Positions 20,154-33,010 of a DNA stretch of 64,000 nt are shown in pieces. Numbering within the stretch: the first letter of the stretch is position 1; each line of letters opens with the position of its first letter. Under the pieces are notes generated by a model. The model did no database searches. It was not told where the DNA came from and saw only the letters and a list, made by a program, of their open reading frames with translations. A program made the position numbers and the translations under genes. The DNA lies in NCBI RefSeq assembly GCF_014698235.1, contig NZ_JACJSP010000002.1:248001-312000 (forward strand). The letters run 5' to 3'. This DNA is from Limnothrix sp. FACHB-406. GTDB taxonomy: Bacteria; Cyanobacteriota; Cyanobacteriia; CACIAM-69d.

Positions 20154-20194
20154 GATTAGATGATTAATTTCCTTAACCAAATAGAAAAAAACAG

Positions 20195-22441
20195 CTAATG
20201 GGCGAGTTCATTCGCAGTTTCGGCTTCCCAGGCGGCGCGGACAAGGCGGATGTCGGCATAGGTGTAGCGCTGTTGCAAGAACTCGTAGATTTCCGTGAGT
20301 CGTTGGGCCCCGCAATGGTCGATCGCCCGGACAATTTCTTGCTGGATGTCGGGAGCCACAAAATCATCGATGTCGATCGCGTAGCCTTTGCGGATCAGTT
20401 CTTCGATGTGGGTGACGATCGTGGTGGTACGCAGGTTGCGGGCTTCGGCGATGTCCGCCAGGCGTTGGCCCTGTTGGTAGAGTTCCCAGGTGCTGTAGAT
20501 GGTGGTGCTGACGGCGCGGCTGGTGCGATCGCTGATCCGCTGGTCGATCGCCTTGGCCGGTGAATCCAGGTTGAATTCCTGGCAAAACGCCCCGATCGCC
20601 GCCGTGAAGGTTTGGCCGTATTGCTCCAGTTTGCGGCGACCGACTCCGGGCACATCGGCGAACTGCGCCAAATCCAGGGGCCGCAACTTGGCCATGGCCC
20701 GCAGGCTGGCATCGGTGAAAACCACGTAGGGCGGCACGTTTTGCTCGTCGGCCAGTTGTTTGCGGAGTTGCCGCAGCCGATCGAACAGGGGTTGTTCTTC
20801 GGGGGCCAGGTCTTCGGTGTTGCTGGTGGGGCGATCGCGCCGTTGGGGGGGCACGGCGACCCAAACTTCTCGCTGTTTCCGCAACACTTCCCAACTGAGG
20901 GCGTTTAACCGCAAAACCCGATAGCCATCGGTGGTTTCATCGACCAAGCCTTCGTGCCGGAGCGATCGCGCCAGCAATTGCCACTGTTCCGCCGTTCGAT
21001 CCTTGCCAATGCCGTAGGTCGAGAGTTCCTGGTGGTTATTGCGCAAAATCTTTTCGCTTTTGGAGCCGCGCAACACGTCGATGATGTATTGCGTGCCGAA
21101 CCGCTCCCGCACCCGCGCCACGCAGGAGAGGAATTTCTGAGCCGGAATCGTCCAATCTTCCAGGGGTTTGGGGTCGCGGCAGTTGTCGCAGCCGTTGCAG
21201 TTGCCGGGAAAGGCTTCGCCAAAATAGCCCAGTTGGATTGTGCGGCGGCAGACGGTGCTTTCGGCATAGTCGATCGTCTGGCGCAGTTGCTGTTGGGCGA
21301 TCCGCTGTTCGTTGGGGTCGGGCTTTTGGCCGATCAAATATTCAATGCTGCGAATGTCGCCCGTGCCGAAGTAGAGGATGCAGCGGGCGGGGTCGCCATC
21401 GCGGCCGGCGCGGCCCGACTCTTGGTAATAGCCTTCCAGGTTGCGGGGCAGGTCGTAATGCACCACCAGCCGCACATCGGGTTTGTTGATGCCCATGCCA
21501 AAGGCGATCGTCGCCACCATCACCCGCACATCGTCGCGAATAAAGCGGGTTTGGTTGTCGGCGCGGCTCTCGTTGTCCATGCCCGCGTGGTAAGCGAGCG
21601 CTTCGATGCCGTCCATTTGTAGCTTGCGAGTCAGCTCGTCCACCCGTTTGCGACTGAAGCAATAGACGATCGCGGAGCCATCGGTGGTACGCAACAGCCG
21701 CAGCAGTTCGGGATAGGTGTTGCGATCCTTGGGCCGCACTTCGTAGTAGAGGTTGGGGCGGTTGAAGCTGGCGATGTGGATCCGTGGGTCGCGTAACTGC
21801 AACTGGTGCACGATGTCTTGACGGACGCGATCGGTGGCCGTGGCGGTCAGGGCCATGAACGGTACGTTGGGATAGCGATCGCGCAGGCTCCAGAGTTGCC
21901 GATATTCCGGGCGGAAGTCGTGGCCCCACTCGGAGACGCAATGGGCCTCATCGATCGCGAATTGGGCCAAGCCGATCGTCTGGTGGATTCGATCGATCAG
22001 GGGCAAAAATCCCTCGGTCATCAACCGTTCGGGCGCAACGTAGACCAATTTATAAACATTGTTCAGCAGTTCCAATTCGCGCGATCGCAACTCGGCCACG
22101 CCCAAACTGCTGTTCAGAAAGGTGGCGGAAATCCCGTTATCGCGCAGGGCGGCCACCTGGTCTTGCATCAGGGCAATTAGCGGCGACACCACCACGGTCA
22201 GGCCGGGTTGCAACAGGGCGGGCAGTTGAAAACACAGGGATTTGCCGCCGCCCGTGGGAATCACGACCAGTTGATCGCGCCCTGCCAGTGCCGCTTCCAC
22301 AATGTCCCGCTGGCCGGGCCGAAAGCTGCGATAGCCAAAGTACTGCTTGAGGGCCTGATCAAGGTTGGGATCGGTGACCCGATCGGGCGTTGTGGTGGGT
22401 TGCCCCGCCGTTTGGTTTGTTGTCTGACCAACCCCGATCAT
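20195..22441 (-). CDS. recQ: ATP-dependent DNA helicase RecQ
   Basis: 3'-5' superfamily 2 DNA helicase for recombination and replication repair. Motif 0 [14 protein letters not shown], Walker [22 protein letters not shown] box [20 protein letters not shown], motif III MALTATA, and motif [13 protein letters not shown] are present, followed by the RQC zinc site (CRRTI...CNGCDNC) and a C-terminal HRDC domain ([24 protein letters not shown]), for about 748 aa. The ATG at 22441 follows AAGGAA; a GTG at 22456 is an alternative. The protein is longer than E. coli RecQ owing to a tail after HRDC. Confidence 0.96.
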
Positions 22442-22625
22442 GTTCCTTGCCGCCACTCGCCGTGCAATTCCTTGCTGAATTTAGCCCAAAACGGCAGTCC
22501 ATACCGATCTCGCTGGGGATGGGCGATCGATCCGGAGCTGGGGTTCAAGTGCGACCTGCCATAAGCCAGAAAATATACCCAGCCAATGTCAAAATAATCA
22601 CCGATGGGCTGATCTACATCCGGTC

Positions 22626-23387
22626 ATGAACTCTTCCTTTGTGTGGCGGTGGCTTGTGCGACGATCCTGCACATCTGGGCTGCGGCCCGTTGATGATCCG
22701 GGTTCAGGATTGGCAACTGGCTCTGTGGTTGTGGGTACTATGGGTGAAGATTCGGGTTCTGGATCGGTTGCTGGCTCCGTGACTTTGGGTGATGGGCGAT
22801 CGGGCTATCAAACCCAGAAGGCTTCTCACTCAATTTCAGGCTGTTTGATTTCAAATCGCTTGACGGCGGGTGACTCAGCGGTGGGGTTTACGCTGCTGGA
22901 ATTGCTGATTGTGGCGGCGATGGTGGGCATCCTTAGCGCGATCGCCGCGCCCGTTTGGCTATCTTTTGCGGATAATCAACGCCTCAGCCAAGCCCAGGAT
23001 GCGGCCTTTCGGACGTTGCGAATTGCCCAAGCCCGGGCCCGCCAAAATCGCCGGGTTTGGGAATTGTGTTTGCGGGACACGGGCCGATCGGTCGAGTTGG
23101 CGGTGCAGCCCGCTCGGACAGGTTTTTGTGACAATGCCCGGTGGGAACCTCTGCTGGCGGAGGCCACGGGCACGATCGGTGTGGCGATCGATGTGGATAA
23201 CAGCACCCTGCGATCGCGCAGTGGCGTTTACCGAATGCAATTCCAAGGCAGCGGCTGGGTGAATGGGCAACTGGGCCGCATCACCTTTCAACTGCGCGAT
23301 CGGGTGGATAGCCGCCGGAGTTGCGTGTTTGTGTCAACCCTCTTGGGCGCGTTGCGGGGCGATCGCGATCGGGCCTGCTTGCGCTAA
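22626..23387 (+). CDS. Type IV pilin-like / GspH-type pseudopilin
   Basis: Carries the class III (prepilin) signal AVGFTLLELLIVAAMVGILSAIAAP: cleavage would fall after Gly (codon at 22884), leaving Phe+1 and Glu+5 and a hydrophobic helix. The remaining ~165 residues fit a GspH/FimT-like minor pilin with paired cysteines. The ATG at 22626 gives an 86-residue leader, much longer than the usual 6-25; TTG codons at 22845 or 22860 would give normal leaders of about 13 or 8 residues, so the true start may be there. Function: minor pilin or competence pseudopilin in the cell envelope. Confidence 0.8.
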   Translation: MNSSFVWRWLVRRSCTSGLRPVDDPGSGLATGSVVVGTMGEDSGSGSVAGSVTLGDGRSGYQTQKASHSISGCLISNRLTAGDSAVGFTLLELLIVAAMVGILSAIAAPVWLSFADNQRLSQAQDAAFRTLRIAQARARQNRRVWELCLRDTGRSVELAVQPARTGFCDNARWEPLLAEATGTIGVAIDVDNSTLRSRSGVYRMQFQGSGWVNGQLGRITFQLRDRVDSRRSCVFVSTLLGALRGDRDRACLR

Positions 23388-23578
23388 CTCGCGGGTGGTT
23401 GGCTCGCTGGTTTGCGGGCTTCTTTCTGACCAGTACTTTGACATGGAAATAGTGAGTTGGTGAAAATCTTGCAATGCAAGCGATCATTTGTCGCAAGCCA
23501 TCATAATTACAGACATTGTTAACCTTGGCGGATAAGTGATTTTGGCACAAAAATTATCTCATAAGCACTGCCAATTTT

Positions 23579-24394
23579 CTATCTTAGTGATGGTGAACCA
23601 ATCTCTGCACTATTACTAATAGTCGGGTCTCTCATCATGATTTGAAAAAACTCAATAGCTCTTTTTTGGCTCCTGAAAGAAGCAACCTGGATAGCCTGCC
23701 GATTAACTGACTTCCTGATCTTCAAATATGCATCTCTACAGTAATTATTTTTGAGATAGCTAAGGGTATTACTATCAGTTCGATTGACAAAAACTGGATA
23801 GAAGTTCTGAAGTCCGCGAGGATTGGAATCGCCACACTCTGATTTTGGAAAACTCCAACCTGGATAGTTTTGAGCGGTATTGTTCTGAGGCTGGGTAGAT
23901 CTTTGGGGTTGGGTCGCCTCAGTTTTGGGCTGTTGATTAGACTGAGAAGCATATATACCGAAGGCGATCCCTATAAGAAGAAGAAGCAAGGCGAAACAGC
24001 CACAGCTAGACAAGGAAAAATTATCTGTAGAGGAGGAGCGTGGAGAACTGAAAGACTCTGGAGATCTAGTAGGTGGCGTGCCTCGAAAATTAGGTTCTGT
24101 AGTGCTAGGCAGTCTTGGAATATTAACATTACTAGAAGACCCTAGAGATCTAGTGGCGGAAGCACCTTGGGAAGCTGGAGATCTAGGTTGTGTGGGTCTT
24201 GGAATTTGGACTGGAGGTGATCTTCTCGCTACTGCTTCTACAAGAGAAGTGTCACCGCACCAGCATTTCCTATAATGTCGCCACGCACTAAGCGTAAGGA
24301 TTTTTCCACAGCTAGGGCATTTCATGCCATGCTCGTTGACCCTGAAGGTATGGTTAGTGTAGGGGCAACGAATACCTGGTTCAAAACTTTCCAT
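23579..24394 (-). CDS. Membrane protein with N-terminal RING-like zinc module and C-terminal SPOR-like domain (E3 candidate)
   Basis: Last gene of the ubiquitin-like island, 271 aa. Residues 10-46 hold clustered metal ligands (C10, H15/H22, C26-x2-C29, H40, C44, C46) in GMKCPSCGKI...RHYRKCWCGD, resembling prokaryotic RING-finger/treble-clef modules, though a plain zinc ribbon is possible. A Ser/Pro-rich linker leads to one membrane helix (about 131-148, FALLLLLIGIAFGIYA). The C-terminal ~90 residues (CGDSNPRG...NNYCRDAYLKIRK...IQVASFRSQKRAIEFF) resemble the SPOR-like domain at the end of many cyanobacterial envelope proteins. Probable topology: zinc module in the cytoplasm, SPOR-like part outside. 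The ATG at 24394 is preferred to a TTG at 24415. Confidence 0.65.
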   Translation of the reverse strand: MESFEPGIRCPYTNHTFRVNEHGMKCPSCGKILTLSAWRHYRKCWCGDTSLVEAVARRSPPVQIPRPTQPRSPASQGASATRSLGSSSNVNIPRLPSTTEPNFRGTPPTRSPESFSSPRSSSTDNFSLSSCGCFALLLLLIGIAFGIYASQSNQQPKTEATQPQRSTQPQNNTAQNYPGWSFPKSECGDSNPRGLQNFYPVFVNRTDSNTLSYLKNNYCRDAYLKIRKSVNRQAIQVASFRSQKRAIEFFQIMMRDPTISNSAEIGSPSLR

Positions 24395-24429
24395 TATTTC
24401 TATTTCTACTAACAAGAAATCTCACGACT

Positions 24430-25080
24430 TTACTTTCTAGTTTCCCTGCTGCCTTTACGCTTTCTTTGAGTAGAGCGTGCCTGGGTACTACCAGATGAAG
24501 TTACATTGCTGGCATCATTTCTCCAAACTAGCTGCGATCGCGACTCCGTGCTTAACTCTGAATTGTCTCTCCATACCAGATTTTGGGTTAAGGATTGTTG
24601 GTATTGATTCACTAATCGATTCATTCTTTCGTCGCCGTTGGGATCGTAGCTGGAAACTCGTATACCGTGATTGTTACCAGCGTAACCAGAGCTGCCATAT
24701 GCTTGATTCGCTCGATAGGCAGCTATGCTCTTGATTTGACTCTCTGTCAGGCAAGTATTTTCTTCATTGTTAGATATTCCTAGTGCACGACTTTCTTGAT
24801 CCGTTAATCTCAGACTTCCATTTTGGTTACGGTCTCTTAAGTCTGCTAAGAAAGCATCACGTCCAATCGTATGATCACTGCCCACTCTTCCTTGAAAGTA
24901 CCAACACCCGTCCTTTTGCCAATAGTGATCGTGGGAGATTACACTGCCTCTATCGAGGCTGTCTCTATCCCCAGAGCATAGAATTTCCCAGGCACCATCA
25001 GGCTGGCGTTTGAACTTGTACCATAGCCCCGTTGATTGATCTAGTTGAATTGCTTGTCCCCAATGACCATTATTAGACAT
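24430..25080 (-). CDS. Uncharacterised protein with EF-hand-like loop and two LxWR motifs
   Basis: 216 aa, sixth gene of the ubiquitin-like island; family not recognised. The N-terminal half is Trp/Tyr/Gly-rich and probably beta (TGLWYKFKRQPDGAWEIL, YWQKDGCWYFQGRVGSD). An EF-hand-like loop DRNQNGSLRLTDQE spans residues 83-96 (D83, N85, N87, G88, L90, D94). The disordered C-terminal part contains NLVWRD (167-172) and QLVWRN (183-188) and ends in a basic tail (RKRKGSRETRK). The ATG at 25080 follows GGGGGA and lies 22 bp after the ATPase stop. It could be a substrate or adaptor of the conjugation system. Confidence 0.6.
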   Translation of the reverse strand: MSNNGHWGQAIQLDQSTGLWYKFKRQPDGAWEILCSGDRDSLDRGSVISHDHYWQKDGCWYFQGRVGSDHTIGRDAFLADLRDRNQNGSLRLTDQESRALGISNNEENTCLTESQIKSIAAYRANQAYGSSGYAGNNHGIRVSSYDPNGDERMNRLVNQYQQSLTQNLVWRDNSELSTESRSQLVWRNDASNVTSSGSTQARSTQRKRKGSRETRK

Positions 25081-25102
25081 CGTTATTCCCCCATAAATCA
25101 AG

Positions 25103-26824
25103 TCAATCACGCCAGTTTAGTCTCGATCGAGCATCCGCTTGTTCACCTGGACTATTGGCTTGATTACCTTCTCTCCAGATCAGCCTAGAACTGGGTGTTA
25201 GACGCATTTGGTTGGAATCTCTCCAATTAAGTCTACCTCTGGATGAAGGATTCCATGTCATACTTGACCTCATGCTTGACTCTAATTGTTCTGTATAGTC
25301 AACTAAAAAGGGTTTTCGGCAAGCTGTTTTAGAGTGTACTGTGGCAACAAATGGATCACCAACAGGATACTTAATTTCACGTGCTTCTAGGATGGGGACT
25401 AATTCTCGTGAAGTCTCATACCGCTCTCTTGAAGAGCGGGTGCGGAACCAAGGAAACTCATCTTGAGGGTTTGTTTCGTGATGTCTACGTCGCCTAATAC
25501 TTCGAGGTCTATCCCCAATACGATTAACTAGCCAATTAGCAGTTCCATCGCCTACATTTCGACAAAGGATAACCGTATCAAAGTTTTCCATAACCTGATC
25601 GCGATAATCAGGATCAATAAGTTCCAAGCTCTGCGAGGCAATGATTATGCCACCTTTAGCTGAACGAGCTACACTACTAAATTCAGCTATATCAATTTGT
25701 TTTTGTATCCTTGGAAATTCATCAAGCCAAAAAGCTATACCCAATCCTCCCGCAGAGTTTGTCCATCTTTCATAGAAAATTGTCATTAAAATATCAATTA
25801 GCGCTACGGAGATTTTCTTAGAAATATCCCGTCCTGCAAGCTCAGCCCCAATTACAAACAGGGTTTGACGATTCTGAATATCGCGCAGCAAAATATCACT
25901 ATGGTTTGTAACCTGCTCAAAATTTGGCCAAGAAAAAAAACTAAGGCTGTCCTGAATAACCCAAGTGAATGCTTGATCTGCATTTTCACTATTCTCTAAA
26001 AGCCTTAGTTGAGCTTGGATGGATCGATGTAATTCAGAATCCTGGCATCTTTGCAGTAGCAGGCTTAGCTTGTTTAGGGGATCTTGAGCTATTTCATATA
26101 CATGCCTTAAAGTTGCGGAATTGCCCATTACCTGCTTAATGAGTATGATCCACTGAGCAATCCAGGTTATATCTCGCGTAGCAAACTGACGATTTTCACC
26201 TAAATCATCTGTATTGCCATAGAGAGCCTTCGCTAAAATTTGAGCATCTTGAATAGAAGAAATATTATCTAATAAGTTGATACTATGGCTACGCGAGACT
26301 TCTTGAGGAAGTGCGCTCCAGTAGATTACTTGAACACCCCTGCTTTCTGCATATCGTCCCAGCTTATCAATTAATTCTCCCCCCTTGACATCAATCACTA
26401 TGTTAGATAAGCCAGCATCAATCGCCGACTTTATCCCTGGAATAATAAAACCACCCGTCTTACCAGAGCCTGGTGGCCCAATAATTGCAAGGTTTTTATA
26501 GATACTGTTCTCCTGTAGCCAAATATTCTCACCTGAGCGAGTACGACCACGAGATATGTCTAAAAATTTGCCAACATTAAATACAGGCTGTGTTGCCAAC
26601 CTGTCATGATTCTTCAAAATTCTCGCGTTGTGGAAATTTGACCCTGGGTTTCTTAGGATATTTGTAATTTCATTGAGAGTGGCAGTTCCCGAATAATCTC
26701 TCAACTCATGAACATCTATATCCGTTGGAGGTAGAGAGTCAAGAGGCCCAATAATGGTCTCACCGCCCCCAACAAGAGAACGAAGTCCCCATCGCAAATT
26801 CTCGAGTGAGTCCTGCCATGTCAT
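25103..26824 (-). CDS. Soluble TraG/VirD4-like (HerA-FtsK superfamily) ATPase of the ubiquitin-like island
   Basis: 573 aa. Walker A IIGPPGSGKT (about 115-123), IVIDVKGGEL (142-151), Walker B IAFWLDEFPRI (363-372) and GGIIIASQSLELID (391-404) are typical of type IV secretion coupling proteins. Unlike VirD4/TraG it has no N-terminal membrane helices. The tail after residue 525 is disordered and carries three copies of a short motif: RLNWRD (531), RLIWRE (547) and, at the very end, RLNWRD (568-573). The start codon lies 3 bp after the JAMM gene stop. A pumping or unfolding role on modified proteins is conceivable; origin from a conjugative element is the alternative, but no relaxase is present. 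Confidence 0.82.
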   Translation of the reverse strand: MTWQDSLENLRWGLRSLVGGGETIIGPLDSLPPTDIDVHELRDYSGTATLNEITNILRNPGSNFHNARILKNHDRLATQPVFNVGKFLDISRGRTRSGENIWLQENSIYKNLAIIGPPGSGKTGGFIIPGIKSAIDAGLSNIVIDVKGGELIDKLGRYAESRGVQVIYWSALPQEVSRSHSINLLDNISSIQDAQILAKALYGNTDDLGENRQFATRDITWIAQWIILIKQVMGNSATLRHVYEIAQDPLNKLSLLLQRCQDSELHRSIQAQLRLLENSENADQAFTWVIQDSLSFFSWPNFEQVTNHSDILLRDIQNRQTLFVIGAELAGRDISKKISVALIDILMTIFYERWTNSAGGLGIAFWLDEFPRIQKQIDIAEFSSVARSAKGGIIIASQSLELIDPDYRDQVMENFDTVILCRNVGDGTANWLVNRIGDRPRSIRRRRHHETNPQDEFPWFRTRSSRERYETSRELVPILEAREIKYPVGDPFVATVHSKTACRKPFLVDYTEQLESSMRSSMTWNPSSRGRLNWRDSNQMRLTPSSRLIWREGNQANSPGEQADARSRLNWRD

Positions 26825-26827
26825 GAT

Positions 26828-27703
26828 CTATCTTCCACCTCCAAGAATAAAACGGGAAAGCCGTTCGAGTAAATTATTAAGAACATCGAGTATAGAAAGA
26901 ACGCTCCACCCAGAATTTTCAGGATCTTGCCTTGAATTAGTATCTTGAGTAAAGTTTGCTGTCTCTGGATTAGATGCATCCTCCTCAATATTTCTATTTA
27001 CCTCAGGTTTAGGTACAGGTAGTCGAGGCAATTCCACTCTTCTGGTTACTAATGGCTCTGAGGTCTCTTCATTGATTGGGGATGCATTGGGCGGAGATTC
27101 ATTGGGTAAAGATATTGAGCTACTGAGATAGACAGGGCTTAACCGCTTACCCTGTTCTCCATAGAAATATCCTATTTCGCGGCGAATTGGATCATATACA
27201 GCCGCAATTTGCCAAATCTTCCCAAAGGAAAGCCTCTGAGTATTTAGATCTGTTCCAGACAAAAATATTCCATGTCCTGGATGAGAATGATACCAACCAA
27301 CAATTGTTGTTTGTGGATAATGCTCTTTTTGGGTTCTGAGGATTTCCTGCCAACATTCAGGTGTAAATCTGAAGTGAACTCTATTACCTATTGTATAAGG
27401 AGCAGGAATAGAGCCTACTATCTCTGTATAGTGTTTTTGCTCGGCAGAACAGTAATAAGCATTGCCAACTAGAGCACCGCCTGTTTCATTGTTTGGATCA
27501 ACCGAAAGATGATTGATTAATTGGTTCTCTGCACTTTGATCAACGAAGATCAGCATTTCTGAGGGGTGATCTGTTTGCTGAGTCAGAGAGCTTCTTCTTT
27601 GTCGATTATCAATTAGTTGATCTCTGCTTTTTAGAAATGAACTAAGCGCATGATTACGCGGCTTATACACATCAGCATCATCTCGCCATTGCAGTTGAGA
27701 CAT
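26828..27703 (-). CDS. JAMM/JAB-domain deubiquitinase-like isopeptidase
   Basis: 291 aa, predicted to process or remove the ubiquitin-like protein. The JAMM zinc site is complete: E73 in NNETGGALVG, then H139-S-H141 in GWYHSHPGHGIFLSGTD with S149 and D152 (spacing HxH-x7-S-x2-D). A Pro/Glu-rich linker separates this from a C-terminal amphipathic helix (SILDVLNNLLERLSRFILGGGR). The protein begins MSQLQWRDD, so it bears the island's LxWRD motif at its N-terminus. I chose the ATG at 27703, 5 bp after the E2 stop; the longer frame would overlap the E2 gene by 85 bp. Confidence 0.9.
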   Translation of the reverse strand: MSQLQWRDDADVYKPRNHALSSFLKSRDQLIDNRQRRSSLTQQTDHPSEMLIFVDQSAENQLINHLSVDPNNETGGALVGNAYYCSAEQKHYTEIVGSIPAPYTIGNRVHFRFTPECWQEILRTQKEHYPQTTIVGWYHSHPGHGIFLSGTDLNTQRLSFGKIWQIAAVYDPIRREIGYFYGEQGKRLSPVYLSSSISLPNESPPNASPINEETSEPLVTRRVELPRLPVPKPEVNRNIEEDASNPETANFTQDTNSRQDPENSGWSVLSILDVLNNLLERLSRFILGGGR

Positions 27704-27708
27704 GAGGA

Positions 27709-28221
27709 TTACCTCCAATTTAACTGACGAGATGACTGGCTCGTGGAAGAGTTGGAACTGAAGGGGAAAAGATGGCGATTCAAATTCGCCCATTTCGCTG
27801 CTTCTCCATTAGCTGGAGTGCCAAATCGGAGATTTTCATACTGGAGCATCCCAATCACTCTTTTCACTAAAGCGTCTAGTGGATGACTCATGATCATCAA
27901 CTCACTACCTTGGAAACAGAAGCGTCCACTAGAAAAAACATTGGGATGAAATATCGGTGTTGTGAGCTTTACGGTTGGAAGCTCTCCAGGATCTGGGTAA
28001 GCTGCAGGAAACGAGCTAATCTCCAGAATATGATTGGTTCGATACTTTGGCGCTCCGCTGCTTACGGATTCAACGCTCTTGCAGTTAGAAATCTGGAGTC
28101 GGTAATACTCTAGGGGGCAACTACCTTCAATCATTTGGATCTTGACCGGCTCACTGAATGCACAGAGAATTTGCAGGGCGCGATAATCATTTGATAAGCG
28201 CTCATTACGAATCGATGACAT
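27709..28221 (-). CDS. E2-like ubiquitin-conjugating enzyme
   Basis: 170 aa. The UBC-fold core is clear: ILEISSFPAAYPDPGELPTV corresponds to the FP-x-x-YP strand region, then TTPIFHPNVFSSGRFCF gives the HPN motif (92-94) and the active-site Cys (C102) at the spacing of eukaryotic E2s. It should accept the activated ubiquitin-like protein from the E1 as a thioester. After residue 152 the protein is Ser-rich and disordered and ends exactly in RQLNWR, one copy of the recurrent motif. The start lies 6 bp after the ubiquitin-like gene stop, in a tight operon. Confidence 0.88.
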   Translation of the reverse strand: MSSIRNERLSNDYRALQILCAFSEPVKIQMIEGSCPLEYYRLQISNCKSVESVSSGAPKYRTNHILEISSFPAAYPDPGELPTVKLTTPIFHPNVFSSGRFCFQGSELMIMSHPLDALVKRVIGMLQYENLRFGTPANGEAAKWANLNRHLFPFSSNSSTSQSSRQLNWR

Positions 28222-28227
28222 TTCTTC

Positions 28228-28476
28228 TCAGCCTCCTTCAGCTTCAGGTGTAAGAATGAAAACAGAGCCTGACTCGATGCCTGCACCTTGAAACGTATCA
28301 GAGTCTCTCATTACCTTGTTCGTCTTTTCAAGAACAAGAGAACAAGGAACAGTTGACAGCCCAGCTAATTCTTGAGCAGCTTGCCTAAAGTCTCCTAAAA
28401 GCATATCGGCTGGAACATCAGTTGTTTTACGGAAATCACCACTGAGGTTTCTCACGGTTACGGTAACTTGGTTCAT
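28228..28476 (-). CDS. Ubiquitin-like protein with C-terminal Gly-Gly
   Basis: 82 aa, the predicted modifier of the system. The beta-grasp pattern is visible: MNQVTVTVRNLSGDFRKTTD (strands 1-2), LLGDFRQAAQELAGL (helix), SLVLEKTNKVMRDSDTFQGAGI and SGSVFILTP (last strands). The frame stops directly after PEAEGG, so the diglycine is exposed without processing. I chose the ATG at 28476, which sits 7 nt after GAGGAG; the ATG at 28482 is too close to that site. The size and YukD/ubiquitin-like layout fit bacterial Ubl families. No LxWR motif. Confidence 0.85.
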   Translation of the reverse strand: MNQVTVTVRNLSGDFRKTTDVPADMLLGDFRQAAQELAGLSTVPCSLVLEKTNKVMRDSDTFQGAGIESGSVFILTPEAEGG

Positions 28477-28769
28477 TTTCATACTCCTCAAGTAGAGTTT
28501 AGTTCGTGCAAGGCTGACAGCCTACTAGAATAGCAACAACCCATTGATTGTACATAGGTTAAGTCACAAAGAGTAGTGTCTTCAGATTCAACAATTTTAA
28601 GCCTTTCTGTCTGATTTTCTAAAATAAAAATACGATCAGATAAAATGCCATTGTTTGAGCTGGAAATAGTACTTAAATCGAGAAGACTTTTTTGACTTCT
28701 CTTCAGATCATACCACTTGGAACACCAGTAATTCTAGTCCAATCTGAACGTGAAATCTTGATCTCAACG
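28477..28769 (-). other. 293-bp gap between E1-like and ubiquitin-like genes
   Basis: Unlike the other junctions of the island (3-35 bp), this one is wide and AT-rich. It holds an imperfect hairpin (GAGAAG / CTTCTC, 28680-28701) shortly after the E1 stop, which could end or attenuate transcription. It ends in a clear GAGGAG site for the ubiquitin-like gene. A separate promoter for the downstream genes is likely, but I cannot name one with confidence. Confidence 0.45.
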
Positions 28770-29942
28770 TCAAGCCAGTTCATGGATTGTCTCATTTTCA
28801 AGGTTTGTCAAGTAAATTTGATAAATCTCCTCATCATCATGAATGTTTTTATGAATAAATCGGACAATTTCATGAGCGCAAAGTTTAAAGAAAGAAAATG
28901 GCTTTTGAGCATCTTTATGATTGGATTCAACATAGCAATAATGATGCATCTCTCTACGATTGCCACATTTAATGCAAAAGCTTTTACTCTGTGTAACTTG
29001 GTCTCTAAGGTTGACTATTAGCTCAGTGCTACCACACTTTTCACAAGTAACGCTGGATATAAAATCAAACGGAAGTTCTAGTCTCCATCCGTCGCGCAAA
29101 CTCAGCTTTTCGGCAACATAACCTGGACTATGAGATAGACTGAATTGACAAAGATTTTCATCTTTGTTCTTGGGAATTGAATAATGGTCAGGGCATTCCT
29201 TGTCTACAAAAAACTCAACAGTTCGGAATCCAAGTGGTTGACTCACTGGCAGAATCAATTGCGTTCCTGGCTGTAAGTTGCTGCTTCCTAATAGAAGCTG
29301 AATTACTACTTCAGCTTGGTAAGCAGCTACAACAGAAGCAGTCATAATCGTTGTTGCCAGCTTTGGTTCCCGATAATCATCTCTTAAAAGACCACATGAG
29401 TAGCTCTCGTTAAGGCGCTCCCATGCTGATGTGTCCATCTTGCAACGATAGCAAGCAGTCTCAGGTTCTCTAGGATCAAAAAGAGCCACATTTCCTGAGT
29501 AATGGTTGATTCCACCATCAACCCATGGAACTCCAACGGAGTAGCATCTTTTATTAAGTAATCGCCGTGCTCTTACACTGTCTAGGCAGCCTACTACTAC
29601 ATCCATTTCACGGAGTAAACCACGACCAAAATCTGTTTCTAATTTTCCGACTACAGGGTGAATGTGAATATCTGAATTCAGGTCTTTGAGTCGTTGAGTA
29701 ACAACTTCAGCTTTATATTTACCAATGTCAGATTCTCTGAATAGTACAGATCGCGTCAGGTTATGAATTTCAATAGTGTCATAATCAATAACCCAAATAT
29801 GCCCCACTCCAAGCAGGGCAAGGTTTTTAAGCACCTCGTTTCCAAGTGCTCCGCATCCCACGACAGCAACTCTTGCCGCTGCTAACCGTTCTTGCTTCCA
29901 GTTTGGGATGAGGCTATGTCGAGCATAGCGTTCTTCAGACAT
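28770..29942 (-). CDS. E1-like ThiF-family adenylating enzyme
   Basis: 390 aa, first gene of the island; predicted to adenylate the Gly-Gly end of the ubiquitin-like protein. ATP-binding Rossmann motif VAVVGCGALGNEVLKNLAL (25-43), acidic VIDYDTIE (51-58), NLTRSVLF with the Arg finger, and CLDSVRARRLLN (D121). A zinc site is likely from C164-x2-C167 and C250-x2-H253. C183 in YSCGLLRDD is a candidate thioester Cys. After about residue 290 an extra C-terminal zinc ribbon (C300/C303, C323/C326) and helices follow; these are unusual for a MoeB/ThiF protein and may recruit the E2 or a target. The ATG at 29942 gives MSEERYARHSLIPNW, typical of the family. Confidence 0.9.
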   Translation of the reverse strand: MSEERYARHSLIPNWKQERLAAARVAVVGCGALGNEVLKNLALLGVGHIWVIDYDTIEIHNLTRSVLFRESDIGKYKAEVVTQRLKDLNSDIHIHPVVGKLETDFGRGLLREMDVVVGCLDSVRARRLLNKRCYSVGVPWVDGGINHYSGNVALFDPREPETACYRCKMDTSAWERLNESYSCGLLRDDYREPKLATTIMTASVVAAYQAEVVIQLLLGSSNLQPGTQLILPVSQPLGFRTVEFFVDKECPDHYSIPKNKDENLCQFSLSHSPGYVAEKLSLRDGWRLELPFDFISSVTCEKCGSTELIVNLRDQVTQSKSFCIKCGNRREMHHYCYVESNHKDAQKPFSFFKLCAHEIVRFIHKNIHDDEEIYQIYLTNLENETIHELA

Positions 29943-29960
29943 AGTGTGATCTTGTATTCG

Positions 29961-30001
29961 CCAGTATGTATATACTGGCTTTCCTTTACAAGTGTTGTCA
30001 A
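29961..30001 (-). promoter_or_regulatory. Candidate promoter/operator of the ubiquitin-like island
   Basis: On the minus strand a perfect TTGACA (29996-30001) lies upstream of the hairpin-forming repeat CCAGTAT/ATACTGG (29961-29978), which would overlap the -10 region. The E1 start codon is 19 bp further on. An 11-bp direct repeat (AGTAACTGTGA) is next to the -35 at 30001-30022. The palindrome could bind a repressor; no regulator gene is seen in the island. Confidence 0.4.
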
Positions 30002-30073
30002 GTAACTGTGAAGTAACTGTGATTTGTACTCAACACATCACGGGGCTACCCTCGCTTTTTAATCCCAGCCTGT

Positions 30074-30562
30074 TTAATTCGTCGCTTTTTCGCTCACGCC
30101 CTGGCCCAGCTCAGGAGCCACGGGATACCAACGCCAACGCTGAAGCCGAAACCGCACTGTGGTGAACCGGGCCCGTTCCGCCACCGGGCGATCGAGCAAT
30201 TGCTCCACGGGCAATACTGTGCCATCGGTCTGCACAGCCAAATTGTCCGCCTCTAACTCCAGCATCCAATTGCCGAACCGACAGGTGACCGGTGTGATCC
30301 GAAAGCCACTCAAGGACTCGATCGGGTGGCCAATGCGCGCCCCCACACAAAACACCTCCTCCGGGGCCCGGCTCACGACCCGCAGCGCGATCGCCACTTC
30401 CTCGCGTAATTTCTCAGACTGCTCAATTAACGATTGCCACTCAGCCAGGCTGGAGGAGCCACCCGCCAAAGCAGGCTGGACTTCCCAGCCAACGGTGGCC
30501 ACTCGCACAACTCCCACCAGAATGGTGATCAGCCCCAAAGTCCAATGTATGTATTTACCCAT
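30074..30562 (-). CDS. Hypothetical envelope protein
   Basis: 162 aa. A hydrophobic N-terminal segment (WTLGLITILVGVVRVATVG) followed by QPALAGGSSS suggests a signal peptide or anchor. The rest is a small domain with two cysteines (EEVFCVGARIGH, TPVTCRFGNW) and FRLQRWRWYPV. Family not recognised. GC content and CGATCG sites match the host genome, so it marks the right border of the AT-rich island. Confidence 0.55.
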   Translation of the reverse strand: MGKYIHWTLGLITILVGVVRVATVGWEVQPALAGGSSSLAEWQSLIEQSEKLREEVAIALRVVSRAPEEVFCVGARIGHPIESLSGFRITPVTCRFGNWMLELEADNLAVQTDGTVLPVEQLLDRPVAERARFTTVRFRLQRWRWYPVAPELGQGVSEKATN

Positions 30563-30862
30563 TGATCGGGAAGCAACCGCCGAGCGCCCAGACGATTACG
30601 TAGCCTCTGTTACGGTTTTAGCCCGATCGATTCAATCTCAGCCCAGTTCTCAAGAAAACCACACAGCAATTTCAGTGCGTCTGGTCACCACGATCCGATC
30701 GCCTGCCTCGTATCATGCAACCGAAGCGGGCCCCTCATCGGATTGACCCACGGGCAGCGGCCAAAGGGTGAATGAAAAACAACATGGGCAACCCTCGCCC
30801 GGCCGCCACCAACCGGTCACTCCTAACCTCCCCCAACAAACCCTCAGAGCCACTGACTGACC
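30563..30862. other. Intergenic region before argB
   Basis: 300 bp between divergent genes. It should contain the argB promoter. An antisense-type open frame passes through but has no support as a gene. Confidence 0.45.
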
Positions 30863-31762
30863 ATGGATCACGAAAGCGAATACATCAGTAAAGCCGAAGC
30901 CACCCGGGTGCGCGTTCTCAGCGAAGCCCTGCCCTACATTCAGCAGTTTGCCGGGCGCACGGTGGTGGTGAAATATGGCGGCGCAGCCATGAAAGACGAT
31001 CGCCTCAAGGACAAGGTGATTCGTGATGTTGTGTTCATGTCCTGTGTGGGATTACGTCCAGTGGTGGTGCATGGGGGCGGGCCCGAAATTAACAATTGGC
31101 TGGGCAAACTCAACATCGAGCCACAATTCCGCGACGGGCTGCGGGTGACCGACTCCGACACCATGGATGTGGTGGAAATGGTGTTGGTGGGCCGTGTGAA
31201 TAAGGAACTGGTCTCGCTGATTAACCAGGCCGGTGGCATGGCGATCGGGCTTTGTGGCAAAGACGGCAACTTGGTCACCGCTCGCCAAAAGGGCAACCGC
31301 CAGGAAATTGGCTTTGTGGGCGAAGTCAACAGCATCAACATCGATGTGTTGGAACCGATGTTGAACAATGGCTATATTCCCGTGATTTCCAGCGTGGCGG
31401 CCGATGCGGACGGCCAAGCCTACAACATCAATGCGGACACGGTGGCCGGGGAGTTGGCGGCAGCCCTGGGAGCCGAGAAGATGATTCTGCTGACGGATAC
31501 GGCCGGGGTGCTGCGGGACTATAAAGATCCTTCGACCCTGATCCCCAAGGTGGATATTCAAGGGGCCCGGGAGCTAATTTCCCAAGGCATCGTCGGCGGC
31601 GGCATGATTCCCAAGGTGAACTGTTGTGTCCGATCGCTGGCTCAGGGGGTGCGGGCGGCTCACATTATTGATGGCCGCATTCCCCACGCCCTTTTGCTGG
31701 AAATTTTTACGGACGCGGGGATCGGAACCATGATTGTGGCCTCCGATCTGATGAAGTCTTGA
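30863..31762 (+). CDS. argB: Acetylglutamate kinase
   Basis: Phosphorylates N-acetylglutamate, the controlling step of arginine synthesis, and in cyanobacteria the target of PII. 299 aa, full length. Visible are [12 protein letters not shown] (first Gly-rich loop), [55 protein letters not shown] and GGMIPKV. The family-specific residues for the arginine-inhibited, PII-binding type (extended N-terminal helix before TVVVKYGG) are in place. No other arg genes are next to it. Confidence 0.97.
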
Positions 31763-31824
31763 ACGCCTTAGGGGGCGGTTGCGGTTCTTCATAACCCTGA
31801 TCCCGCGGCCATGAGATCGTGGGG

Positions 31825-31848
31825 GACAAGGGGCTGCGGCCCCTTGTC
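31825..31848. repeat. Inverted repeat GACAAGGGGC / GCCCCTTGTC, copy 3 of the palindrome family
   Basis: 10-bp perfect stem with a TGCG loop, 60 bp after the argB stop. It shares the outer sequence of the palindromes at 1615 and 4315 but has a different centre. Probably acts as a 3'-end hairpin of argB mRNA. Confidence 0.75.
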
Positions 31849-31912
31849 TAGTATGGGTATTGCGGAAGTTCCCTGAAGCAACCTGAACCGTTCTGAACTG
31901 TTTCGAGCAATC

Positions 31913-33010
31913 ATGACCTATTCCACAAACACCCTGGGCGTGGCGATCGCCGGTACGGGGTTTGGCCAAAAAGTCCATCTGCCGGTGTTGCAGCAGCACC
32001 ATCGCACTCGCCCGATCGCCCTGTACCATCGCCAAATTGAAACGGCTCAGGCGATCGCCCAACGGCATCAGCTCTCCTATGCCTTCGATAGCTTTGAGGA
32101 AATGGTGGCCCTGCCGGAGGTGCAGGCGGTGATGATTTCTACGCCGCCCTTTTTGCACTACACCATGGCCCAAACGGCCCTGGCGGCCGGGAAGCATGTG
32201 CTGCTGGAAAAGCCGGTGACCATGACGGTGCAAGAGGCGATCGCCCTGGAGCGTTTGGCTGCAAAAACGGGGGCGATCGTGGCGGTGGATTTTGAGTTTC
32301 GGATGGTTCCGGCTTGGCAATATTTGGCGGAACTGCTGGCGGACGATCGCGTGGGCCAAAAGCGACTGATCAAAATCGATTGGATGGCTTCCAGCCGGGC
32401 CGATGCCAGCCGGACTTGGAATTGGTATGCCCAGCGATCGAGCGGTGGCGGGGCCCTCGGGGCGATCGGGTCACATACCTTTGACTACATTCATTGGCTG
32501 TTTGGGCCCGTGCGGCGGTTGTTTGCCCATTTGGTCACCTCCGTGCCCGCCCGACCCGACCCCAGCAGCGGCCAACTGAAACCGGTGGATTCCGATGATA
32601 TTTGCCAAATCTTGCTGGAGCTGACCGATGGCACGCCGGTTCAGGTCTGTTTAAGCTCCACAACCTACCAAGGGCGCGGCCATTGGGTGGAAGTCTATGG
32701 CGATCGGGGCACGCTGATTTTGGGCAGCGACAACCAAGCGGACTATATCCACGGGTTCAAGCTCTGGTATGCACCCGCAGGCGAGCCGTTGCAAGAATTG
32801 CCCGTGCCCGATCGCCTGGCGTTTCCCCAAACCTATTCCGATGGGCGGATGGCGGCCGTGTTGCGGGTGGTCGATCGCTGGGTGCAGGCGATCGATCAAG
32901 GCCAGGCGATCGCCCCATCCCTCCACGAGGGGATTGTGTCTCAGCAGCTAATGGACTTGGCCCACGAGTCCCACGATCGGGGGCAATGGGTGACGGTTCC
33001 CGATGCTTAA
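31913..33010 (+). CDS. Gfo/Idh/MocA-family oxidoreductase
   Basis: 365 aa. Rossmann motif GVAIAGTGFGQKVHLPVL (about 9-26), signature HVLLEKPVTMTVQEAI with the catalytic EKP, and substrate-domain motif GGGALGAIGSHTFDYIHWLFGP. The protein resembles sugar or inositol dehydrogenases but the substrate is not predictable. Only about 33% identical by eye to the member at 11377, so not a recent duplicate. It is followed by a cobalamin riboswitch belonging to the next operon. Confidence 0.87.
   Translation: MTYSTNTLGVAIAGTGFGQKVHLPVLQQHHRTRPIALYHRQIETAQAIAQRHQLSYAFDSFEEMVALPEVQAVMISTPPFLHYTMAQTALAAGKHVLLEKPVTMTVQEAIALERLAAKTGAIVAVDFEFRMVPAWQYLAELLADDRVGQKRLIKIDWMASSRADASRTWNWYAQRSSGGGALGAIGSHTFDYIHWLFGPVRRLFAHLVTSVPARPDPSSGQLKPVDSDDICQILLELTDGTPVQVCLSSTTYQGRGHWVEVYGDRGTLILGSDNQADYIHGFKLWYAPAGEPLQELPVPDRLAFPQTYSDGRMAAVLRVVDRWVQAIDQGQAIAPSLHEGIVSQQLMDLAHESHDRGQWVTVPDA

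Follow-up and report, generated by a model that had tools for sequence, protein, structure and literature searches.

An acquired ubiquitin-like conjugation island in Limnothrix with a VirD4/TraG-type ATPase and a tryptophan motif shared among its proteins

Results

The window analysed here is a stretch of 64,000 nt from Limnothrix sp. FACHB-406 (NZ_JACJSP010000002.1, positions 248,001–312,000), and all coordinates below are window positions. An earlier interpretation, hereafter the sequence-only reading, had proposed a complete ubiquitin-like (Ubl) conjugation operon, whose seven minus-strand open reading frames (ORFs; 23579–29942) lie at the positions it gave. They encode E1, Ubl, E2 and JAMM proteins, an ATPase of the VirD4/TraG type and two further proteins, designated P6 and P7. 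The short motif [LIV]-x-W-x-[DE] is common to the C-terminal tail of the E2, the N-terminal arm of the JAMM protein and the tails of the ATPase (three copies) and of P6 (two copies), and it is absent from the E1 and the Ubl of the island. The features of the locus are the following:

28770–29942, minus strand: E1, ThiF-type adenylating enzyme with a C-terminal zinc ribbon-like part, 390 amino acids (Pfam ThiF, 1.1e-55)
28228–28476, minus strand: Ubl, beta-grasp protein ending in GG, 82 amino acids (profile match to ubiquitin; model with a predicted local distance difference test score (pLDDT) of ~95 and VIA Z 12–13)
27709–28221, minus strand: E2, UBC fold with HPN and Cys102, tail end LNWR, 170 amino acids (profile match to RAD6/UBE2A; model)
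26828–27703, minus strand: JAMM protease with the N-terminus MSQLQWRD, 291 amino acids (Prok-JAB, 1.3e-9)
25103–26824, minus strand: soluble VirD4/TraG-type ATPase with a motif-bearing C-terminal tail, 573 amino acids (T4SS-DNA_transf, 1.4e-19; TraG-D_C, 6.6e-9)
24430–25080, minus strand: P6, a folded domain (~residues 1–166), swapped in other operons, and a tail with two motifs, 216 amino acids
23579–24394, minus strand: P7, degenerate RING-like zinc module, transmembrane segment and variable C-terminal domain, 271 amino acids
23424–30072, no strand: whole insert, absent from congener G042, in which the flanks adjoin with 2 bp between them
29960–29979, no strand: inverted repeat (palindrome), putative operator

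The E1, Ubl, E2 and JAMM genes are of the proper families and stand together in one operon; the conjugation operon of the sequence-only reading was confirmed by profiles for all four proteins, and for Ubl and E2 also by a model. The E2 on its own matches Pfam UQ_con at 7e-6, just under the curated cut-off, and the Ubl matches YukD at a sub-threshold 0.006. Both cases were settled by profiles built from relatives, that of the E2 matching RAD6/UBE2A at 3e-16 and that of the Ubl matching single ubiquitin chains over the full length to the GG at ~1e-4. The Ubl ORF, whose ATG start codon at 28476 follows closely on a GAGGAG, shares one frame with the E2 ORF, and the two were folded with AlphaFold as a single chain in which the TGA was read as Trp. 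In the resulting model (mean pLDDT 88.7), SUMO, ISG15 and Caldiarchaeum ubiquitin align with the Ubl part (VIA-align, Z 12–13), and UBE2S and UBE2G2 with the E2 part (Z ~12.5); that is, the UBC and beta-grasp folds on which the proposal had been staked beforehand were both found. HP is invariant in the E2 alignment, N and C102 are present, and the JAMM protein carries the metal motif HSH-x7-S-x2-D. E1 and E2 enzymes charge Ubl, and JAMM proteases trim Ubl precursors and remove Ubl; the Ubl precursors of relatives terminate in GGY (Crinalium), GGA or GGYNYDS (O. princeps).

Some related operons hold additional copies of core genes. Extra Ubl copies without a terminal GG are present at L025:6686–6934 (ending VS), L026:7359–7604 (TS) and L029:8137–8418 (CC), and those in L025 and L029 adjoin a conjugatable Ubl; they are possible decoys or structural subunits. 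A second E2 at L026:8487–9005, in which the catalytic Cys is gone and the tail motif QIKWK is kept, appears to be a dead yet tagged paralogue.

The core is part of a discrete, acquired and accessory insert. Window positions 20187–23423 and 30073–32908 align at 93–94% to directly adjacent DNA of congener G042, and the island is therefore delimited to 23424–30072, that is 6,649 bp. Transposon-type ends were considered and rejected, as neither terminal repeats nor a target-site duplication were seen at the insert ends examined. The sequence-only reading had described the block as AT-rich and nearly free of HIP1 sites. Its composition bears this out (42.3% GC as compared to 55.6%; one HIP1 site as compared to 1.16/kb in the window), but the HIP1 poverty is not singular, since 8 of 288 overlapping island-sized segments, some of which cover the island itself, are equally poor. 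The perfect palindrome GCCAGTATGTATATACTGGC at 29960–29979 stands immediately before the E1 gene and may be an operator. The gap between the E1 and Ubl genes (28477–28769) measures 293 bp; Crinalium carries a second Ubl at the equivalent place, and inspection of three reading frames of the gap revealed no readable remnant.

The fifth gene encodes the ATPase, whose predicted membership of the VirD4/TraG coupling-protein superfamily is confirmed by the profile matches listed above, as the sequence-only reading had it. Its Walker A sequence is GPPGSGKT, and its orthologues are 64–70% identical. The copies of the motif in this protein and in its neighbours are distributed as follows:

27712–27723, minus strand: LNWR, E2 C-terminus
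27680–27694, minus strand: LQWRD, JAMM N-terminal arm
26810–26824, minus strand: MTWQD, possible copy at the ATPase N-terminus, conserved in relatives
25217–25231, minus strand: LNWRD, ATPase tail
25169–25183, minus strand: LIWRE, ATPase tail
25106–25120, minus strand: LNWRD, ATPase C-terminus
24565–24579, minus strand: LVWRD, P6 tail
24517–24531, minus strand: LVWRN, P6 tail

The form LxWR occurs seven times in the 1,993 residues of the island as compared to 0.63 expected occurrences, with a maximum of five in 5,000 shuffles, and LxWR[DEN] occurs six times (0.11 expected). The other ORFs of the window (15,133 residues) contain LxWR twice and LxWR[DEN] not at all. Codons vary among the copies (TTA, CTG, CTT or CTA for Leu; AGG, CGA, AGA or CGT for Arg), which places the selection on the protein rather than on the DNA. 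In a comparison of 30 operons, for which the loose form [VIL]x[WF] was counted, the motif was present in 29 of 30 E2 tails, 27 of 28 JAMM arms, all ten ATPase tails and all 20 tails of P6 or of Z, a protein at a P6-like position described below. RING-like proteins often carry it near their ends as well (e.g. LIEWEDLK and GIEFRDLE), whereas the Ubl has it in only 2 of 30 cases as compared to 13.6 expected.

It could be argued that the motif is a functionless by-product of drift in tryptophan-rich linkers or of recombination between neighbouring genes. The tails are indeed of low complexity, and shuffled tails, being rich in W and F, yield the loose form in one-third to one-half of cases. However, the differing codons, the position kept in nearly every E2 tail, the depletion in the Ubl and a flavour that changes in concert between proteins all speak for a function, and we regard such an origin as most improbable.

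This concerted change is seen when operons are compared. Crinalium and Oscillatoria have LNWRD throughout. In Roseofilum and Microcoleus, E2 and JAMM carry VKWHK, VKWGK or IRWHK, and ATPase and P6 carry IRWRR and VKWRN/IKWGK. In Microseira, W is replaced by F in the E2 (NLIFR) and the JAMM protein (QLEFRD) alike. Thus, the flavour of the motif shifts across the proteins together, and the folded domains that bear it get swapped. A motif that is conserved in position, changes in concert and sits on varied domains is what one would expect of a docking motif recognized by a single shared reader. In related operons that lack the W motif (L022, L023, L024 and L093), the string KFxI[QK] recurs in both the E2 tail and the linker of the JAMM protein and may be a comparable tag with a flavour of its own; the JAMM proteins of these operons have a long extra N-terminal region that gives a weak match to the E2 profile.

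The swapping of domains is most evident for P6, which the sequence-only reading had treated as a fixed, EF-hand-like component. Neither description held: none of six orthologues keeps the candidate loop DPNGDERM, and three operons have a PD-(D/E)xK-looking domain in place of the folded one, with the tail, its pair of motifs and its basic, RKMTR-like end retained. For the P6 fold, Foldseek returned no match at E<0.001, and the best VIA Z score of 6.3 is within the range that unrelated models reach. A PD-(D/E)xK identity of the alternative P6 (L030) was not accepted, as it had only sub-threshold matches to DUF234 and UPF0102 and an E...EID...ExK pattern noted on visual inspection, and a PDB profile search of this protein gave no match. 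In ATPase-less operons, the P6-like position is taken by the Z protein (L015:5187–5885, with relatives in L081–L088), which has two C-terminal W motifs. A by-eye guess that Z is a PIN nuclease found no Pfam or PDB support and was dropped. A third kind of protein at the P6 position (L044:4977–5674) contains LNWQE and LNWQD ahead of degenerate repeats of KSKAxTNKTTQLSAA.

P7 was assessed by an alignment of 15 relatives and by Pfam searches of relatives. C26, C29 and C44 of its zinc module are invariant, and about one zinc site is complete; therefore, the module appears to be a degenerate form of the RING-like module of the sequence-only reading rather than a full RING. The Roseofilum P7 matches Prok-RING_1 at 0.0018, below the curated score. 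The SPOR domain also assigned to P7 was not confirmed, as no such Pfam model matches it at E<1. Relatives keep the zinc module and the transmembrane segment and differ in their C-terminal domains, which are GUN4 (9e-26), pilin-like (9e-28) or NTF2-like.

ATPase-bearing operons were found in 11 cyanobacterial species, namely Crinalium, Oscillatoria princeps, Microseira wollei, Microcoleus, Roseofilum, two other Oscillatoria-type assemblies, three further genomes and Limnothrix itself. The co-occurrence of the genes elsewhere, expected by the sequence-only reading, was thereby established in ten other species, and the whole conjugation operon, including its unusual soluble ATPase and the zinc-module membrane protein, proved to be a conserved unit that was acquired. 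Its spread is patchy: among 391 genomes drawn from one order, 10 have the ATPase-bearing operon, and the ATPase gene is absent from five other genomes compared in the Limnothrix order. About twenty more cyanobacterial operons comprise E1-Ubl-E2-JAMM and, in most cases, a RING-like membrane protein, and have no ATPase. No relative of the E2 was found in phages. PADLOC, a check that the sequence-only reading had called for, matched no known defence system; its hits were limited to generic models (E1-E2/JAB/BilD) and, for the ATPase, mads_8 at 4e-6.

In Crinalium the operon sits on a mobilizable plasmid. This fact, together with the family and the TraG-D_C domain of the ATPase, would fit a coupling protein for DNA or protein transfer, in which case Ubl and motif would be transfer signals of a secretion or conjugation system. 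However, the Limnothrix genome has no VirB4 (PF03135), which a control search detected in Caulobacter; conjugation is therefore unlikely and was rejected as the function of the island. As the motif is also present in the roughly twenty operons without the ATPase, we consider a transfer system very unlikely.

Discussion

A common reader of the motif should be ubiquitous and itself motif-free, which leaves the Ubl or the E1. Three points, each of them weak, favour the Ubl. First, strand beta2 of the Ubl is basic (FRKTTDVP) where the motif is LNWRD and acidic (KEEEATVP) where it is VKWHK. Second, a partial Mantel test of motif against Ubl, given E1 and E2, yields r=0.25 (p ~0.01), and the value for the E1 is negative. 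Third, there are eukaryotic parallels: the SUMO-interacting motif (SIM) binds its Ubl through beta-strand addition (PMC12751080), and the shuffled ATG8-interacting motif (sAIM) of C53, IDWG/D, binds ATG8 and, at alpha1/beta2, UFM1 (PMC10183829). As in these cases, the bacterial motif is short and hydrophobic and occurs in disordered regions, in several copies and with acidic neighbours. Its residue order is that of the sAIM, and similar strings are found in related operons (IDWQ in the L090 E2; IDWI in the L087 JAMM protein). SIM and sAIM, in contrast, are eukaryotic, and the bacterial motif is a putative Ubl binder.

Besides the yield of shuffled tails, several observations weigh against Ubl as the reader and against the module proposed below. 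Shared ancestry inflates the partial Mantel test, and the charge swap rests on a single clade. In the folded Ubl-E2 chain model, the E2 tail is disordered and undocked. The Microseira operon (L028) is a chimera that combines basic ATPase and P6 motifs with a basic-beta2 Ubl, so charge matching is not strict. The E1 C-termini of one group end in IAIQF, which could be the same kind of motif, and its absence from the E1 is thus not universal. A genome search for motif-rich genes returned only the ATPase and P6, with none tagged outside the island, and the island is not known to confer a phenotype towards phages or stress.

Part of this evidence would suit a motif that is read by the E1, or by the RING-like protein, and serves as a docking tag keeping the enzymes on one scaffold. 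The E1 is present in every operon and motif-free in the ATPase-bearing group, the E2 has to meet the E1, and the L028 chimera indicates that the flavours of the Ubl and of the ATPase and P6 motifs can mismatch. Elsewhere, an E1 holds its E2 by its ubiquitin-fold domain, or as Atg7 does. On the other hand, the partial Mantel value for the E1 is negative, binding of JAMM, ATPase and P6 all to the E1 is harder to rationalize, and RING-like proteins often bear the motif themselves. We therefore hold this alternative to be unlikely.

With the Ubl as the presumed reader, the island can be described as a membrane-linked accessory conjugation module that assembles through a bacterial Ubl-interacting motif and whose role is most likely defence in conflict or stress; this is the description towards which we lean. 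Judging from the protein families, JAMM would trim Ubl precursors, E1 would activate the Ubl, and E2 and the RING-like membrane protein P7, acting as E3 and sensor, would attach it to targets. The motif may bind the Ubl by beta-strand addition in the manner of SUMO-interacting or shuffled ATG8-interacting motifs, and E2, JAMM, ATPase and P6 would then gather by avidity on charged or conjugated Ubl. The ATPase might remodel, unfold or move the marked target or DNA, and P6, putatively nuclease-like in some relatives, might act on it. Defence would be triggered through the variable domain of P7. More generally, we can imagine a bacterial short-linear-motif code in which [LIV]-x-W-x-[DE] in disordered tails co-evolves with the Ubl and brings enzymes, a motor of the VirD4 type and exchangeable effectors to targets that carry the Ubl mark, following the logic of SUMO-SIM and UFM1/ATG8-sAIM, whether by convergence or by ancestry. 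This broader claim is put forward tentatively, as an idea with slightly less than even prospects.

A role in defence is suggested by the mobility of the operon, its patchy spread and its swappable parts. Alternatively, the module may serve envelope or protein quality control, P7 sensing the envelope, the conjugate marking damaged or membrane proteins and the ATPase extracting them in a p97-like manner. P7 is membrane-anchored with variable C-terminal domains (GUN4, pilin-like, NTF2-like), no known defence system was matched, and the related Bub operons have no demonstrated antiphage activity (PMC13373217), all of which would agree with such a role. However, a conflict system better fits the presence in only 10 of 391 genomes, the Crinalium plasmid, presence or absence at the strain level and the swappable P6 domains. 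Quality control thus appears unlikely, albeit worth keeping in mind beside the defence role.

As to known systems, the conjugation core groups with Ubl operons of the E1-E2-RING-JAB kind and not with Bil, CBASS, 6d or 6e. Burroughs, Iyer and Aravind reportedly described in 2011 prokaryotic E1-E2-RING-JAB operons with a YukD-like Ubl. The island resembles these operons in its separate E1, classical E2, JAB, YukD-like Ubl and treble-clef RING-like protein, and differs by the soluble VirD4/TraG-type ATPase, by P6 with its swappable domain and tagged tail, and by the tryptophan motif common to its proteins. Types 6d and 6e, both found in cyanobacteria, likewise join Ubl, JAB, E1-like and E2-like genes (PMC1779556). 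Type 6d has an E2 without the classical histidine and an accompanying alpha-helical protein, and type 6e has a polyUbl, an inactive E2/RWD domain and an E1 fused to JAB (PMC1779556), whereas the island has an intact HPN, separate proteins and a single-domain Ubl. TraG or VirD4 is not mentioned in the main text of that 2006 study by Iyer and colleagues (PMC1779556). The four-part E1/E2/JAB/Ubl logic, with a JAB that processes the Ubl, is shared with Bil, in which, however, the BilB active site is CEHH and BilA has two Ubl domains (PMC11354881); the island E2 has HPN...C, its Ubl has one domain, and the match of its E1 to the BilD model is partial in length and reaches only 6e-9. CBASS type II (Cap2/Cap3) has the E1, E2 and JAB chemistry in common with the island. 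However, none of the seven island proteins is a CD-NTase, the island E1 is not fused to the E2, and the operon encodes a Ubl of its own.

The shared motif, the modular P6 and P7 positions and the precise empty site go beyond the sequence-only reading. The open literature searched, which did not extend to subscription papers and preprints, contained no description of the ATPase variant, of a swappable P6 with a tagged tail or of the motif. We know of no other Ubl system that has a VirD4-type motor dedicated to it, which would make this variant the first. If the motif binds Ubl, bacteria had a non-covalent reading of Ubl marks in addition to the conjugation chemistry. The tail motif would then also offer a route to all parts of such pathways, including effectors of no recognizable family, and the origin of signalling by SIM or LC3-interacting region (LIR) motifs would become directly testable with small proteins and peptides. 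Apart from these operons, L095 and L096 represent a different, longer locus, in which distant E2-like, JAMM-like and ThiF proteins are encoded among large genes of no assigned family.

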